From: Pseudidiomarina aquimaris
GTDB taxonomy: Bacteria > Pseudomonadota > Gammaproteobacteria > Enterobacterales > Alteromonadaceae
Reading direction: 5' to 3'
Assembly (NCBI RefSeq): GCF_003987395.1
Contig: NZ_PIPT01000005.1
Span: 186,001 to 250,000, forward strand
DNA: 64,000 nucleotides
The position numbers and the translations under genes were made by a program. A model generated the notes under the pieces. That model had not been told where the DNA came from. It saw nothing but the letters and a program-made list of their open reading frames with translations, and did no database searches. Numbering within the stretch: position 1 is the first letter of the stretch; each line of letters starts with the position of its first letter. Shown one piece after another: positions 57,484 through 64,000 of this stretch.

Positions 57484-57570
57484 TGGTGCGGAGGGAGGGA
57501 CTTGAACCCTCACGTCCTTTCGGACACTAGCACCTGAAGCTAGCGCGTCTACCAATTCCGCCACCACCGC
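57484..57570 (-). tRNA. tRNA-Leu (CAG)
   Basis: Complete class II tRNA with encoded CCA. The anticodon loop is TTCAGGT and the T loop is GTTCAAGTC. One acceptor mismatch (position 5) is shared with E. coli tRNA-Leu(CAG). Confidence 0.95.
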
Positions 57571-57584
57571 AACAAGCAGTGAGA

Positions 57585-57659
57585 TGGCTGGGGTACCAGG
57601 ATTTGAACCTGGGAATGGCGGGATCAAAACCCGCTGCCTTACCGCTTGGCTATACCCCA
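57585..57659 (-). tRNA. tRNA-Gln (TTG), copy 1
   Basis: Complete 75-nt tRNA with CCA: acceptor TGGGGTA/TACCCCA and anticodon loop TTTTGAT. The sequence is identical to the next copy. Confidence 0.96.
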
Positions 57660-57682
57660 ACTCTCGGAAAACAGCTTTTAAG

Positions 57683-57757
57683 TGGCTGGGGTACCAGGAT
57701 TTGAACCTGGGAATGGCGGGATCAAAACCCGCTGCCTTACCGCTTGGCTATACCCCA
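57683..57757 (-). tRNA. tRNA-Gln (TTG), copy 2
   Basis: Second identical 75-nt copy, separated by 23 nt; a tandem duplication as in the E. coli glnV/W/U/X cluster. Confidence 0.96.
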
Positions 57758-57793
57758 ACTTAGGCTTAAAAACTTGCGCTCACCGTGAAAGGT

Positions 57794-57878
57794 TGGTGCG
57801 GACGGAGAGACTTGAACTCTCACGCCGTGAGGCACTGGAACCTAAATCCAGCGTGTCTACCAATTCCACCACGTCCGC
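57794..57878 (-). tRNA. tRNA-Leu (TAG)
   Basis: Complete 85-nt class II tRNA with CCA: acceptor GCGGACG/CGTCCGC, anticodon loop TTTAGGT. It corresponds to E. coli leuW. Confidence 0.96.
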
Positions 57879-57893
57879 CCATTGCAATTTGGT

Positions 57894-57970
57894 TGGTGGC
57901 TACGGCGAGATTCGAACTTGCGACCCCAGCATTATGAGTGCTGTGCTCTAACCAGCTGAGCTACGTAGCC
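57894..57970 (-). tRNA. Elongator tRNA-Met (CAT)
   Basis: Complete 77-nt tRNA with CCA: acceptor GGCTACG/CGTAGCC, anticodon loop CTCATAA. It is the first gene of the cluster, like E. coli metT. Confidence 0.96.
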
Positions 57971-58227: not shown

Positions 58228-58257
58228 CTGTACCCGTTGATTGCTTGGAGTATTTTT

Positions 58258-58527
58258 ATGGATGTAAAATTTTCCGAAGATGTAATTCCACTATCAGATC
58301 TAAAAATTAACCCTGACAAGCTCGTTGAGCGAGTAAAGGATACACATCGACCTATCTTGCTTACCAGTCGAGGTCGGGGTATCGCTGTTGTCCAGTGCCT
58401 AGAAGATTATGATAATACCGCAGAGGAGTTACGGTTTGTAAAGGCTGCGGAGCAAGGACTCATCGAGGTTTGTGAAGGTGATTCGGTATCGTTGGAGGGC
58501 GCCAAGAAAACCTTAGGAATCGAGTAA
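58258..58527 (+). CDS. Phd/YefM-family antitoxin, orphan
   Basis: An 89-residue protein with the Phd/YefM fold: VIPLSDLKINPDKLVERVKDTHRPILLTSRGRGIAVVQ is the DNA-binding dimer region, and the acidic C-terminal part would wrap a toxin. ATG 58258 has GGAG 8 nt upstream. In typical systems a ParE/RelE toxin follows within a few bases. Here only about ten codons could be read after its stop before a stop codon, and unrelated sequence follows, so the toxin gene is missing. Confidence 0.8.
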   Translation: MDVKFSEDVIPLSDLKINPDKLVERVKDTHRPILLTSRGRGIAVVQCLEDYDNTAEELRFVKAAEQGLIEVCEGDSVSLEGAKKTLGIE

Positions 58528-59201: not shown

Positions 59202-59417
59202 TTATCGGCGATATTTAAAGTTCCTTAGTACTTCTGCTTTAAACTGTCTTGGTGCTCGCCAATCACTAGGGGTGTTCGGTATCGATATACGTCTTTTTCC
59301 GTTGGGAGACACAATCTTTCCATGCTTTTTCCCTCTTTGATAAACGTACCCTCGCTTTACCAGCAACTTAACCAGCTTGTTAATTTGATCATTATTTGAG
59401 TATTTGTGATTCTTCAC
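59202..59417 (-). CDS. HicA-like small protein coupled to the viperin gene
   Basis: A 71-residue basic protein with the HicA (YcfA) double-stranded-RNA-binding-like layout: a first helix (INKLVKLLVKRGYVYQRG), then GKKHGKIVSPNGKRRISIPN, the two-strand region that in HicA carries the catalytic His (GSHHK type; here KKHGK), and a final helix. The usual second His and Ser are missing, so activity is uncertain. The GTG start is 9 nt after the viperin stop, with AAGGA 7 nt before it. No HicB antitoxin is encoded nearby. The HicA-like fold is an inference from motif shape. Confidence 0.6.
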   Translation of the reverse strand: MKNHKYSNNDQINKLVKLLVKRGYVYQRGKKHGKIVSPNGKRRISIPNTPSDWRAPRQFKAEVLRNFKYRR

Positions 59418-59426
59418 GACGATTCC

Positions 59427-60311
59427 TTACTCGCTGTAACGACTTGCGAATGCGCGCATATCGAAAGGAATCTGACTTAGCGCCTTTTGAACACCCACTT
59501 GTAAAATCGGTTTGCTCTGTAGGTGCCCACTGGTCGGGTTTACATTTTGATAAAACTGGCCTTGTGGGTTGATCATTAAATAGGACTGCCACATGTCATC
59601 ATTATCCTCAATGATCAACCTTGGATAGCTCCGCAGGTGGCGATCTACGTATGCATAGTATTGTGTATCAGTAACGACTTGAGACGCATCGTGAACCGGC
59701 AATACACGAAGTAGCTTCCATTTATCAGGCTGAATTTGGTTGATTAGCGCTGACAGGTCTTCGCGAACATTGAACGGGTTGACGACGGTGTTTAGCTTTA
59801 GCTTACCTAGTGGATTGAGGTGCCGGAATGAACGGCATAGTTCAAGCAGTTGCCTCGGGCTTAACCAACGCTTATGGCGATCGGTGCGCCCAATAGATTG
59901 CGCAATCAATTCATCGGCTGTATCGAAACTGATGCCCAGCATATCAAGGCTTGGTGCGACCTCGCGCATCATCTTATCATTGAGAAAGTGCCCGTTGGTG
60001 ATGACCGATGTTTGAAATCCGAGCGCCTTTGCTTTTACTAATGCCCTAGTAAAGTATTTACCTAGCATCATTGGTTCGCCACCGGCGAAATTAATACGAA
60101 CGCGCTGATAGCCGAGTTGCTCTCGAATAGGGTTAGAATTGAAAAAGTAGTCGGCAAGTGAATTGAGTAACGCGTCTACCTGTCCTGAATGGCCATAAAG
60201 CTCTTTACTACTAGGCTCGTCATTCCATTTAGCGTAGCAGTATGCACACCGAAAATTGCATGCCTCGGTCATATGAAAATTGATAACAAGTTCTTGAGTG
60301 CGAATAGTCAT
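59427..60311 (-). CDS. Prokaryotic viperin (radical-SAM ddh-nucleotide synthase)
   Basis: A 294-residue radical-SAM enzyme with the viperin pattern throughout. The cluster motif CNFRCAYC spans Cys18, Cys22 and Cys25 after INFHMTEA, matching human VNYHFT..CNYKC. NFAGGEP is at 74-80, GISFDTADE at 126-134 (human AISCDSFDE), KLNTVVNPFNVREDL at 172-186 (human KINSVINRFNVEEDM), DKWKLLRVLPV at 196-206 and SYLMINPQGQF at 243-253 (human DSYLILDEYMRF). Viperins convert CTP or other NTPs to 3'-deoxy-3',4'-didehydro nucleotides that stop viral RNA synthesis; prokaryotic members (pVips) defend against phage. GGAG precedes the ATG by 7 nt. No adjacent nucleotide kinase is present, so the substrate is unknown. 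Confidence 0.95.
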   Translation of the reverse strand: MTIRTQELVINFHMTEACNFRCAYCYAKWNDEPSSKELYGHSGQVDALLNSLADYFFNSNPIREQLGYQRVRINFAGGEPMMLGKYFTRALVKAKALGFQTSVITNGHFLNDKMMREVAPSLDMLGISFDTADELIAQSIGRTDRHKRWLSPRQLLELCRSFRHLNPLGKLKLNTVVNPFNVREDLSALINQIQPDKWKLLRVLPVHDASQVVTDTQYYAYVDRHLRSYPRLIIEDNDDMWQSYLMINPQGQFYQNVNPTSGHLQSKPILQVGVQKALSQIPFDMRAFASRYSE

Positions 60312-60352
60312 TATTTCTCTCCGTTAATTTAAGTCGCGGGAGAGATGATTTA

Positions 60353-60369
60353 TTAGTGCAGTGCACTAA
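60353..60369. promoter_or_regulatory. Perfect palindrome between the upstream gene and viperin
   Basis: TTAGTGCA and TGCACTAA are perfect 8-bp inverted repeats around one central base. It lies in the 67-nt gap before the viperin gene, 42 nt from its start. No T tract follows on the minus strand, so an operator for a dimeric regulator is more likely than a terminator. A good internal promoter could not be assigned. Confidence 0.6.
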
Positions 60370-60378
60370 AAAGACTTT

Positions 60379-61056
60379 TTATTGATTTTTGAAAAGACTT
60401 ATCAGCTGGTCAAACTCGTAAGCTTCTTGATAGCCGCGTTCCACTGACTCAATGAGCTCACGGTAGGTCTCACTCTGGGCACCAAGCTTTTTAATCCGTG
60501 CGCAATGACTCATTGCTTCAACCCAGTCCTGACGAAGATAAGCAGACAGTAACGAATCATGAACATCCAAAGATGCGGTCTGCGCCAGTAAGGCTTGTAA
60601 CAAACCTATATTACTACCAAGCGCAAGCTGCGGAAGAGTTTGAAAGGGGTTGGGAAGCGTTTTATGTCTTAAGTCGAACGTTTCGATATCATTTAAGCCG
60701 CCTATTAAAAGCTGAGACTTAGAACTCAAAAGCGCCACGCCAACAAGAGCCTGCTTATCCAAAATTAAGCTACGAACTATTTCCGCGCTTTCTTCCCTCA
60801 CTTTTACATCATCGAAGATAGACTTCACACGCTTAGGATCTGGAAAGAATGCATTCAGCAAAAGAGCATTGTAGAGCGTAACTTCACCAGATGTACTAGT
60901 AATGAACCACTGCTTCCTGTGTATGCCTTGCTCAGCTTCGGCTTGAACGAGACCGTTACGAACAAAAGACATTGCTTTGTCTTTGAGTATCTTGCTGTCT
61001 TCAGCTGATGAGATATTAAATACTTTCCGTAAAAGCTCTGGAATTTTATAACGCAT
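60379..61056 (-). CDS. Unknown protein, possible winged-helix N-terminus
   Basis: A 225-residue cytoplasmic protein I do not recognise. ATG 61056 is chosen because it begins one base after the stop of the upstream gene (TAG-C-ATG), although the frame continues 27 codons upstream to a TTG. The first 75 residues look like a winged helix: short helices YKIPELLRKVF and DKAMSFVRNGL, then a beta-wing-like stretch (RKQWFITSTSGEVT). The rest is helical (GLLQALLAQTASLDVHDSLLSAYLRQ), with a Tyr-rich end. If it is a DNA-binding protein it could act on the palindrome 10 nt from its stop. This is inference. Confidence 0.6.
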   Translation of the reverse strand: MRYKIPELLRKVFNISSAEDSKILKDKAMSFVRNGLVQAEAEQGIHRKQWFITSTSGEVTLYNALLLNAFFPDPKRVKSIFDDVKVREESAEIVRSLILDKQALVGVALLSSKSQLLIGGLNDIETFDLRHKTLPNPFQTLPQLALGSNIGLLQALLAQTASLDVHDSLLSAYLRQDWVEAMSHCARIKKLGAQSETYRELIESVERGYQEAYEFDQLISLFKNQ

Positions 61057-61057
61057 G

Positions 61058-61417
61058 CTATCGGCAAACACCTTGCTGCAGGATTCTATCAATCGAGGTG
61101 TGTCTATTATCCGAACTTTCGTCGTCTGAAATGGCAACTCTTCGCGCCGATTCGAAAAGAGAATATTTCCCCAGCCGCCGGCACTGATACTGTTTCATCA
61201 CACCTAAGCAATAACCGGCGCGCATTGCATCAGCAAGAGACGTGGTTTGGCTTGCAAGGAATCGCTTCTCATTATGTGCGTTATAAATTTCAGTGACTGC
61301 CTGGCAGGCACCGATTAAAAATTCAGCATCTGGTTTCTCAAAACTACCTTTTGCATCGGCCGCTAACGGCATGAGGCTAATGAGTACAATTAGTGTGGGT
61401 ATTAAGCTTTTAAACAT
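61058..61417 (-). CDS. Secreted cysteine-containing protein, Rap1a/Tai-like
   Basis: A 119-residue protein starting with the ATG at 61417, inside the upstream gene's final codons (CATGTTTAA: stop of one, start of the other). The N-terminal signal peptide (MFKSLIPTLIVLISLMPLAADA) predicts export. The mature part holds GACQAV, AGYCLGV, YQCRR and a C-terminal GVCR, four cysteines probably in disulfides, in the pattern of small Rap1a/Tai-type periplasmic immunity proteins. That family link is tentative. Its place in a viperin operon is unexplained. Confidence 0.6.
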   Translation of the reverse strand: MFKSLIPTLIVLISLMPLAADAKGSFEKPDAEFLIGACQAVTEIYNAHNEKRFLASQTTSLADAMRAGYCLGVMKQYQCRRLGKYSLFESARRVAISDDESSDNRHTSIDRILQQGVCR

Positions 61418-61934
61418 GATCCTGCTTTTCTTCCCTGAGTGTGACTTTTTCTGGAGGCGATGTAGCTGAAACAGCTTGTGAAAACTTGAGCTTACCCTTT
61501 GGTGCGATGGCAAATATTAAGAGCAACAGAGATGCATTGTAAGCTAAGTTCCAGTACTCCTGCTTATTGTTCATCAGTAGTTGATTGTTGTAAGAGCTCA
61601 GTGAGCCAAAGAGGAGTTCAGAGCTAATGAATACAAACGTATGAATGCCAATTGCAGTGAAGTATCGGTAAATGGCGTTGCCAACTTTAGCAGAGTGTTT
61701 TCTCACTTTTACGATGTAGCGTGCTGAAAGAAGCGTAAACCCTGTTAGGAACAAAATCTCCATGTTGCTCAGGTCATGCCAACCTGCGTCGTTAGGAAAA
61801 ACCGTAGCCGGAAGCCCCCAAAGTGCGATGGCGAAAAGGGCAGAAGAGATAATGAAAAATGACGCTTTAAAGAGCCAGTGTAAGCCAGTGCTGAGAAGCT
61901 CGTCCCAAGTCATGGTGTAATTAGTTTTATTCAA
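61410..61934 (-). CDS. Four-helix membrane protein, unknown function
   Basis: A 174-residue protein with predicted transmembrane helices near residues 19-43, 59-77, 90-110 and 129-146, and a charged C-terminal tail. The start is the TTG at 61934, with AAAGGGA 6 nt upstream; a later ATG (61913) lacks a ribosome-binding site. No family is recognised. It is first in the five-gene viperin operon, behind a promoter at 62016-62044. A membrane component might sense or execute a response, but nothing in the sequence shows this. Confidence 0.65.
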   Translation of the reverse strand: MNKTNYTMTWDELLSTGLHWLFKASFFIISSALFAIALWGLPATVFPNDAGWHDLSNMEILFLTGFTLLSARYIVKVRKHSAKVGNAIYRYFTAIGIHTFVFISSELLFGSLSSYNNQLLMNNKQEYWNLAYNASLLLLIFAIAPKGKLKFSQAVSATSPPEKVTLREEKQDHV

Positions 61935-63439: not shown

Positions 63440-64000
63440 CTAACGCCGTTCGTTCAAAAAGCGATTAATTAGGTCTTGATGTTCGGCTAAACGCTCAATA
63501 ATATCAGCAAAGCTATCAGGGGCACTGAAGAACATTCCACCGCTTACGGACTGGTCGTAATCTTTTTTGATATCTTCGAGCAGCCGCCCCGTTGGAATTA
63601 ACACCAGCTCACCGGAAAGAATGGCTTCAAAGAAAACGCCTCGAGTAGCCCACCTTGCCGACTTCATCGCTACCACGTCCTGCAGTGCTTTCATGTTTTG
63701 GTACGAACCTTCATAGAGATTTTGCAGAATACAGTCTACATCATACCAATGTCTGGATAACCGCACCGTATCAGGCGAGTTCTCTTGCGTGCAGAATTGA
63801 TGAAGTGCGGTTAGCTTTTCCCAAATAATGTAATCGGGGTGGTAAGCCTCTACTGTAGCTATCGGTAACGTATGGGACCCTGCAACCGCATCTATTTCTG
63901 AGAGGTAAGTCGTTACCGGTTTAGAAACCGTCGGCCGGCCCCGATTACGGCCGCCAAATTCGAGCAGTATATGCTCTAACTGATAAGAATCATCTTGGAA
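63440..64000 (-). CDS. AbiEii-family nucleotidyltransferase toxin (5' end outside window)
   Basis: The minus-strand frame is open from the window's edge to the stop at 63440, about 186 residues of the C-terminal part. AbiEii family features are clear: LLEFGGRNRGRP, then HPDYIIWEKLTALHQF, RLSRHWYDVDCILQN, and a C-terminal DYDQSVSGGMFF. AbiEii toxins of type IV toxin-antitoxin (abortive infection) systems are nucleotidyltransferases that act on tRNA or GTP. The catalytic GS...D motif lies upstream, outside the window, as would the AbiEi antitoxin. Confidence 0.85.
   Translation of the reverse strand, partial: FQDDSYQLEHILLEFGGRNRGRPTVSKPVTTYLSEIDAVAGSHTLPIATVEAYHPDYIIWEKLTALHQFCTQENSPDTVRLSRHWYDVDCILQNLYEGSYQNMKALQDVVAMKSARWATRGVFFEAILSGELVLIPTGRLLEDIKKDYDQSVSGGMFFSAPDSFADIIERLAEHQDLINRFLNERR

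Follow-up and report, generated by a model that had tools for sequence, protein, structure and literature searches.

A stretch of 64,000 nucleotides (nt) of the Pseudidiomarina aquimaris genome (contig NZ_PIPT01000005.1, positions 186,001 to 250,000), referred to below as the window, carries a viperin gene with a HicA-like gene behind it and three genes, here called p1, p2 and p3, in front of it. This locus raises the question whether the three genes belong to the viperin and, if so, what they do for it. Viperin family products are chain-terminating 3'-deoxy-3',4'-didehydro (ddh)-nucleotides, and to our knowledge how bacterial viperins and RNase toxins are silenced and switched on is largely open. 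The reading that we favour, with confidence just short of even, is that the locus is a regulated antiviral cassette: p1-p3 would form a control module, the viperin and a HicA-like RNase its payload, and an element made of promoter, operator and hairpin would connect the two. It builds on what was read from the sequences, namely the module as a unit, the element after p3, the exchange of payloads, a dyad core that goes with the p3 lineage, and the geometry of the hairpin.

All five genes listed in a preliminary description of the window were found again at the same positions on the minus strand. The viperin family radical SAM protein (59427..60311, 294 amino acids (aa)) does match viperin along its whole length, as had been proposed (NCBIfam NF038283, 330.7 bits against a cut-off of 180, E 6e-99, residues 7-292). 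It is also matched by PADLOC pVip (E 2e-94), it resembles solved viperins (5vsl, E 3e-26), and its radical SAM CxxxCxxC motif reads CNFRCAYC, the cysteines being invariant across six aligned viperins. The last gene (59202..59417, 71 aa, GTG start) encodes a match to PADLOC PDLC02910 (E 2e-23) in which His32 is conserved in all six aligned sequences, in agreement with its earlier naming; we call it HicA-like and no more because its score against Pfam HicA_toxin, 21.2 bits, is under the cut-off of 27.

The module begins with p1 (61410..61934, 174 aa, TTG start as listed), a membrane protein that had been described as having four helices. Four can be counted by eye, but hydropathy gives one strong and three moderate membrane windows, and its relatives have two to five. 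The p2 gene (61058..61417) encodes a secreted Cys protein of 119 aa with a signal peptide, as judged by eye, and the motif TSLxDAMRAGYCLGV. The third gene, p3 (60379..61056), encodes a candidate regulator; its start is most likely the ATG at 61056, giving 225 aa, because this ATG aligns with the starts of relatives. The protein has a predicted N-terminal winged helix and a helical C-terminal part. None of the three reached the cut-off of any family in Pfam, PADLOC or NCBIfam, and profile searches of PDB sequences gave best E values of 0.064 (p3) and 0.54 (p2). The predicted N-terminus of p3 is similar to MerR-type winged helices, with modest scores; among matches up to E 1, no helix-turn-helix family, MerR included, was found with the 13 members tested. 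An AF2 model of p2 is helical (pLDDT 71) and its fold search gave no match, although a missing match in the lists searched is still compatible with a known fold. Two candidate identities were dropped: p2 as a Rap1a/Tai-type immunity protein, a by-eye likeness without Pfam or fold match, and p3 as Skp1-like, a single Pfam hit below cut-off that came from an over-long start and vanishes with the conserved one.

The tight spacing reported for the operon holds for most junctions (p1 and p2 overlap by 8 nt, p2 and p3 are 1 nt apart, viperin and the HicA-like gene 9 nt) but not between p3 and viperin, where the gap is 67 nt. The promoter that the five genes were thought to share did not come up, in that a sigma-70 consensus scan, a weak test, gave no site on the minus strand ahead of p1. 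An internal promoter is predicted between p3 and viperin, which makes a single, simple transcription unit of all five genes improbable.

Is the arrangement peculiar to this genome? Viperin was found above the family cut-off in 4 of 59 relatives searched, the window's genome included, three of these belonging to the genus, from which 26 genomes were searched; the same five-gene order recurs in 2 of the 25 other genus genomes, with viperins 97% and 85% and p3 proteins 99% and 80% identical. A contig scan with the six aligned viperins confirmed 105 relatives, of which the best 80 were retained (the viperin of L106 was missed by open reading frame (ORF) calling). The set does recur beside other viperins, since p1-p2-p3 lies upstream in 12 of these 80 loci, other genera included (L030-L037, L039, L045, L046 and L051, where L032 and L033 come from one genome); the other 68 lack the unit. 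The three genes are not tied to viperin, however. When the order was sampled without regard to viperin, p2 was present in 17 of 394 genomes, seven with a viperin in the unit and nine without one in the stretch fetched, the last being on a 4-kb contig too short to judge. Altogether 33 distinct module loci were examined, and 20 of them, in several families, have a viperin (in two pieces in L149). Profiles match p2 in all 33 and p1 in 27, the remaining six having a similarly placed membrane ORF, and these matches are partly circular for the loci that built the profiles. Since the unit occurs without viperin and viperin without the unit, viperin is, as far as the sequences tell, one payload of a separable module. 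The proposal of a multi-component defence system with viperin as effector thus stands in part: the set recurs beside viperins and AbiE genes adjoin it, but its three partners also occur where there is no viperin.

Profiles made from a single group link the module groups to each other at the sequence level. The p3 profile of group I matches L125 (E 9e-7), that of group II matches L144 and L149 (3e-5 and 4e-5), and the p2 profile of group II matches L122-L124 (1e-8 to 4e-6); a direct comparison of the group I and group II p3 profiles was weak (probability 1.5%). The module is rare within the class-wide sample (1 of 369 genomes, namely the window's own) and is also present in Nitrincola and in one Saccharospirillaceae genome. 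Viral contigs scanned with alignments of p3 and of p2 yielded candidate stretches and no confirmed relative. A tblastn search of plasmids with p3 found no match, which excludes only close relatives, as a group II copy lies on a Pseudoalteromonas replicon of the same collection. Viperins of Moraxella and Acinetobacter plasmids were rejected as module loci, their neighbours being alike in gene length and different in sequence. In L028 (Moraxella osloensis plasmid) and L029 (Acinetobacter towneri plasmid), a 222-aa protein and another kind of protein of 116-119 aa precede viperin, and the 222-aa protein of L029 is annotated as lecithin retinol acyltransferase family.

The cassette has other genes linked to defence beside it. 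AbiE genes adjoin the cassette from window position 63440 onward (AbiEii E 1e-179, AbiEi E 3e-56), as does a protein of 600 aa that matches HEC-05 in part, and a type I restriction gene lies upstream of the module in L123. An ordinary pVip-HicA pair could have come to lie by chance in a defence island, behind three genes that have nothing to do with it, and viperin and module do each occur alone. We give this account very little credence, because 20 loci from several families keep the identical order and a common control element lies just before the payload. Separately, an AbiEi/AbiEii pair and a HEC-05-like protein stand beside the cassette also in L025:15341-19445. On its other side in the window are five tRNA genes (57484-57970) and, between these and the cassette, a Phd/YefM-type antitoxin gene (58237-58527; PF02604, 51.6 bits) with no toxin partner identified.

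What follows p3 can change. A ParE-like gene is found there in 10 of the 13 loci without viperin, split into two or more pieces in L122, L124 and L146, and the remaining three (L123, L125 and L151) have neither; we read L125 and L151 as payload losses, because relatives of that clade have viperin. Among module loci with viperin, seven have a HicA-like gene and L147-L150 a ParE-like gene (weak in L149), and in L024:7716-8873 and L152:6777-7946 a ParE-like domain (PF24732, 27.3 and 27.0 bits against a cut-off of 24.4) is joined to the C-terminus of the viperin. The lack of a nucleotide kinase noted earlier is true of the five genes here, but not of several relatives, in which kinase genes of thymidylate or deoxynucleoside type lie near viperin. 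Counted together, a HicA-like or ParE-like gene or domain is present in 23 of the 33 module loci, and no HicB-type partner was seen in them. From this one could argue for a toxin-antitoxin-like unit in which p1-p3 hold back a toxic RNase of HicA-like or ParE-like type, with viperin as a passenger. Such a unit seems to us quite improbable, since 10 of the 33 loci, including each of the six group II viperin loci examined, are without such a toxin, and since the HicA-like genes found near viperin in 30 of the best 80 loci include 24 in the 68 loci that have no p1-p3. Two further observations concern payload neighbours. A 160-179 aa protein with a Cys-rich end (GHACHAPS-CACR-PGACK) follows the module in L121, L125, L151, L187 and L188, and is GRDP-like by Pfam in L121 and weakly so in L125; Thg1-like and NYN/OST-HTH proteins are encoded near the module in L125:2975-4808.

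If the payload is exchanged, what connects it to the module? Shortly past the p3 stop codon, all 33 module loci (29 compared first and four fetched later) have a dyad. In the window its core is the candidate operator AGTGCA-C-TGCACT (60355..60367, minus strand, centre 60361), inside the longer dyad TTAGTGCACTGCACTAA, and this is the only exact copy in the 2.8-Mb genome. We aligned 32 elements on the dyad centre, 27 of them distinct, although the rows are related and so do not amount to 27 independent cases. Eight positions are invariant in 27 of 27: T -11, T -10, G -5, T -4, A +4, C +5, A +12 and T +16; positions +17 and +18 hold 0.1 bit or less. The element can be read as a -35-like hexamer, an operator inside a 16-nt spacer and a -10-like hexamer. 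In the window these hexamers would be TTTTTA (60367..60372, minus strand, -11 to -6), with the invariant TT at -11/-10 and otherwise inferred from the consensus, and AATCAT (60345..60350, minus strand, +11 to +16), in which the A at the second base and the T at the sixth are invariant. Placed from the -10-like hexamer, the predicted start of an internal transcript is at 60338 (minus strand, +23).

A search rule made of the eight invariant positions and five of the six dyad pairs had a single hit in the window, the element before viperin, and three stray hits, none before a viperin, in 1.95 Mb of strand sequence from the 68 module-less viperin loci. A blind palindrome search was less clear: the dyad score was not above shuffles in all loci, the dyad was not at the top in L035, L039, L045 and L026, and it was weak in L032, L046, L051, L125, L146 and L151. 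The case for the element, a matter of sequence comparison, rests on its position and shared layout. By the same comparison the dyad core tracks the p3 lineage and not the payload. The element is doubled in L026, L039, L045 and L184, with one copy before a kinase gene and one before viperin. Autoregulation through a second dyad upstream of p1 was considered and set aside, as 21 loci have no exact copy of the dyad core there. Copies with one mismatch lie elsewhere in L046, L051 (two), L145 and L026; that of L026 is the second element before viperin, and one of those in L051, about 170 nt upstream of p1, fails the eight-position rule.

These features bear on how p3 might act. One alternative is that p3 is an activator which binds the dyad and aids RNA polymerase at a weak promoter after a signal from p1 and p2, in the manner of MerR. 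An operator within the spacer, a MerR-like predicted fold and two hexamers that match the consensus poorly would all suit it. MerR activators act on over-long promoter spacers of 19-20 bp, however, and the spacer here is 16 nt, so we regard an activator as unlikely while taking it seriously. Because the 16-nt spacer is not over-long, we prefer p3 as a repressor, although the lean is a modest one.

A second feature lies between the promoter-like element and viperin. The viperin Shine-Dalgarno (SD) sequence GGAG (60319-60322) is part of GGAGAGA (60316..60322), which folding and the element alignment identify as the 3' arm of a predicted hairpin whose 5', anti-SD arm is TCTCTCC (60339..60345, +16 to +22), both on the minus strand. 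The predicted start at +23 is just past the 5' arm; therefore RNA read through from upstream should be silent, and a transcript begun at the internal promoter should be free of the hairpin. Folded in a 60-nt window, 21 of the 27 distinct elements cost more to open at the SD than 90% of 775 other genes in these loci: 18 of 18 from viperin loci and 3 of 9 from loci without viperin. The median cost is 10.2 kcal/mol for the read-through RNA against 1.7 kcal/mol for RNA starting at +23, and it drops from 9.3 (start at +12) to 2.1 (start at +22), just ahead of the start expected from the -10. At the window's locus the values are 7.3 kcal/mol for read-through and 0.1 kcal/mol from +23, and L123 has no drop (4.1 against 4.2 kcal/mol). 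Near the locus, tRNAs alone reach the gathering score in Rfam.

Both hairpins fold in most loci, and PMC10865869 describes HicA domains as double-stranded-RNA-binding. The dyad could then be an RNA hairpin as well, with no control other than at the RNA level; together the neighbouring hairpins would form a leader to which the RNase toxin or p3, for instance, binds. We consider this improbable. The innermost dyad position, which cannot pair in RNA across a one-base centre, is still complementary in 23 of 25 distinct elements (A-T in 20, C-G in 3); the bases of the promoter-like hexamers that never vary (TT, A and T) stand at a fixed distance from the hairpin and are not part of it; and group II loci have the element and no toxin.

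Some side observations concern viperin leaders more widely. In L024-L109 the SD sequences of 77 viperins are more buried than those of 775 other genes nearby (median opening costs 4.6 and 2.1 kcal/mol), the p-values of this comparison being inflated by related sequences; for viperins outside ten module loci the median is 4.4 kcal/mol (n=67, with five group II module loci still in). A conserved ORF of about 37 aa (MYHLILFSLL...LVLGGS-E in L026) begins past the SD hairpin and extends over the viperin start in L026, L039, L045, L046 and L051. Viperins behind a 709-740 aa protein (L040, L041, L043, L044, L047, L048, L057, L060, L063, L068, L070 and others) share a leader about 120 nt upstream that combines a hairpin with a start-stop mini-ORF (ATGTAA, or ATGCAG nearby); the preceding proteins of 737 and 723 aa matched no Pfam family. 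In L075 and L093 a 609-614 aa partner lies 18-24 nt before viperin, with an FGE-sulfatase match below cut-off.

Taken as a regulated cassette, the locus would work as follows. An upstream promoter would drive p1-p3. The internal promoter would be kept off by a p3 dimer bound to the dyad within it, while the hairpin in any read-through RNA would conceal the viperin start. Such a double lock would be sensible because transcription of p3 runs directly toward a costly payload. An envelope or infection signal, relayed by p1 in the membrane and the exported p2, would alter p3; the internal promoter would then fire, with RNA starting just beyond the anti-SD arm, and viperin, through its ddh-nucleotides, and the RNase would be produced and act together. 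That p3 controls the internal promoter and that p1 and p2 pass it an envelope signal are steps that we infer as the most likely ones. The arrangement suggests that one switch may be reused to hold costly antiviral genes silent until they are required. A bolder version, which we hold more tentatively than the cassette itself, is a transferable, self-standing alarm module that would respond to an envelope signal by setting off antiviral payloads that can replace one another: a viperin, a fusion of viperin with a toxin, a ParE-like or HicA-like toxin, or a nucleotide kinase. It would do so through an element doubly locked by an operator in the promoter and a hairpin on read-through RNA. If true, it would be in its logic a bacterial counterpart to the induced viperin of animals.

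How much of this is new? The gene order had been called unusual, yet the pairing of viperin and HicA is already published, hicA or relE adjacent to pVip making up classes 9 and 10 (PMC10865869). Nothing in print was found on the remaining genes or the element, and a description of the module is absent from the open-licence literature searched, as judged by title and abstract. The sections of PMC10865869 covered make no mention of membrane partners, and a search of its text gave no hit for Idiomarina or Shewanella. The present analysis offers a concrete, testable circuit that comprises a 13-bp dyad, a predicted start site, a hairpin and, as new protein families, three proteins of which one may sense the envelope. 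Combined with the element, the profiles of p2 and p3 also give a route to further antiviral payloads.

Like published pVips, the locus has a pVip-family viperin with a HicA-like gene directly downstream; unlike them, as far as PMC10865869 was covered, it has three extra conserved genes and a control element before viperin, and its payload can change. For phage T4, the portion of PMC3014915 consulted reports that read-through RNA conceals the ribosome-binding site of gene e, soc, 49 and I-TevI, and that promoters just upstream of the site in gene e give RNA without the 5' part of the structure, which is well translated. The predicted SD hairpin in read-through RNA and the predicted local start past its 5' arm resemble gene e; the present case differs in being bacterial and only inferred, and in having within the promoter a dyad to which a regulator of its own may bind. 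With MerR-type regulators (MtaN, GlnR, CvkR) p3 shares the predicted N-terminal winged helix and the dyad between -35 and -10, and it differs in the 16-nt spacer, the lack of a Pfam match and another helical C-terminal part. As with the WYL repressors of BrxR/CapW type, in the part of PMC9122601 seen, a candidate DNA-binding regulator is encoded with defence genes and inverted repeats are present; in contrast to these, p3 has no WYL match and belongs to a three-gene, membrane-linked module whose payload is exchanged.

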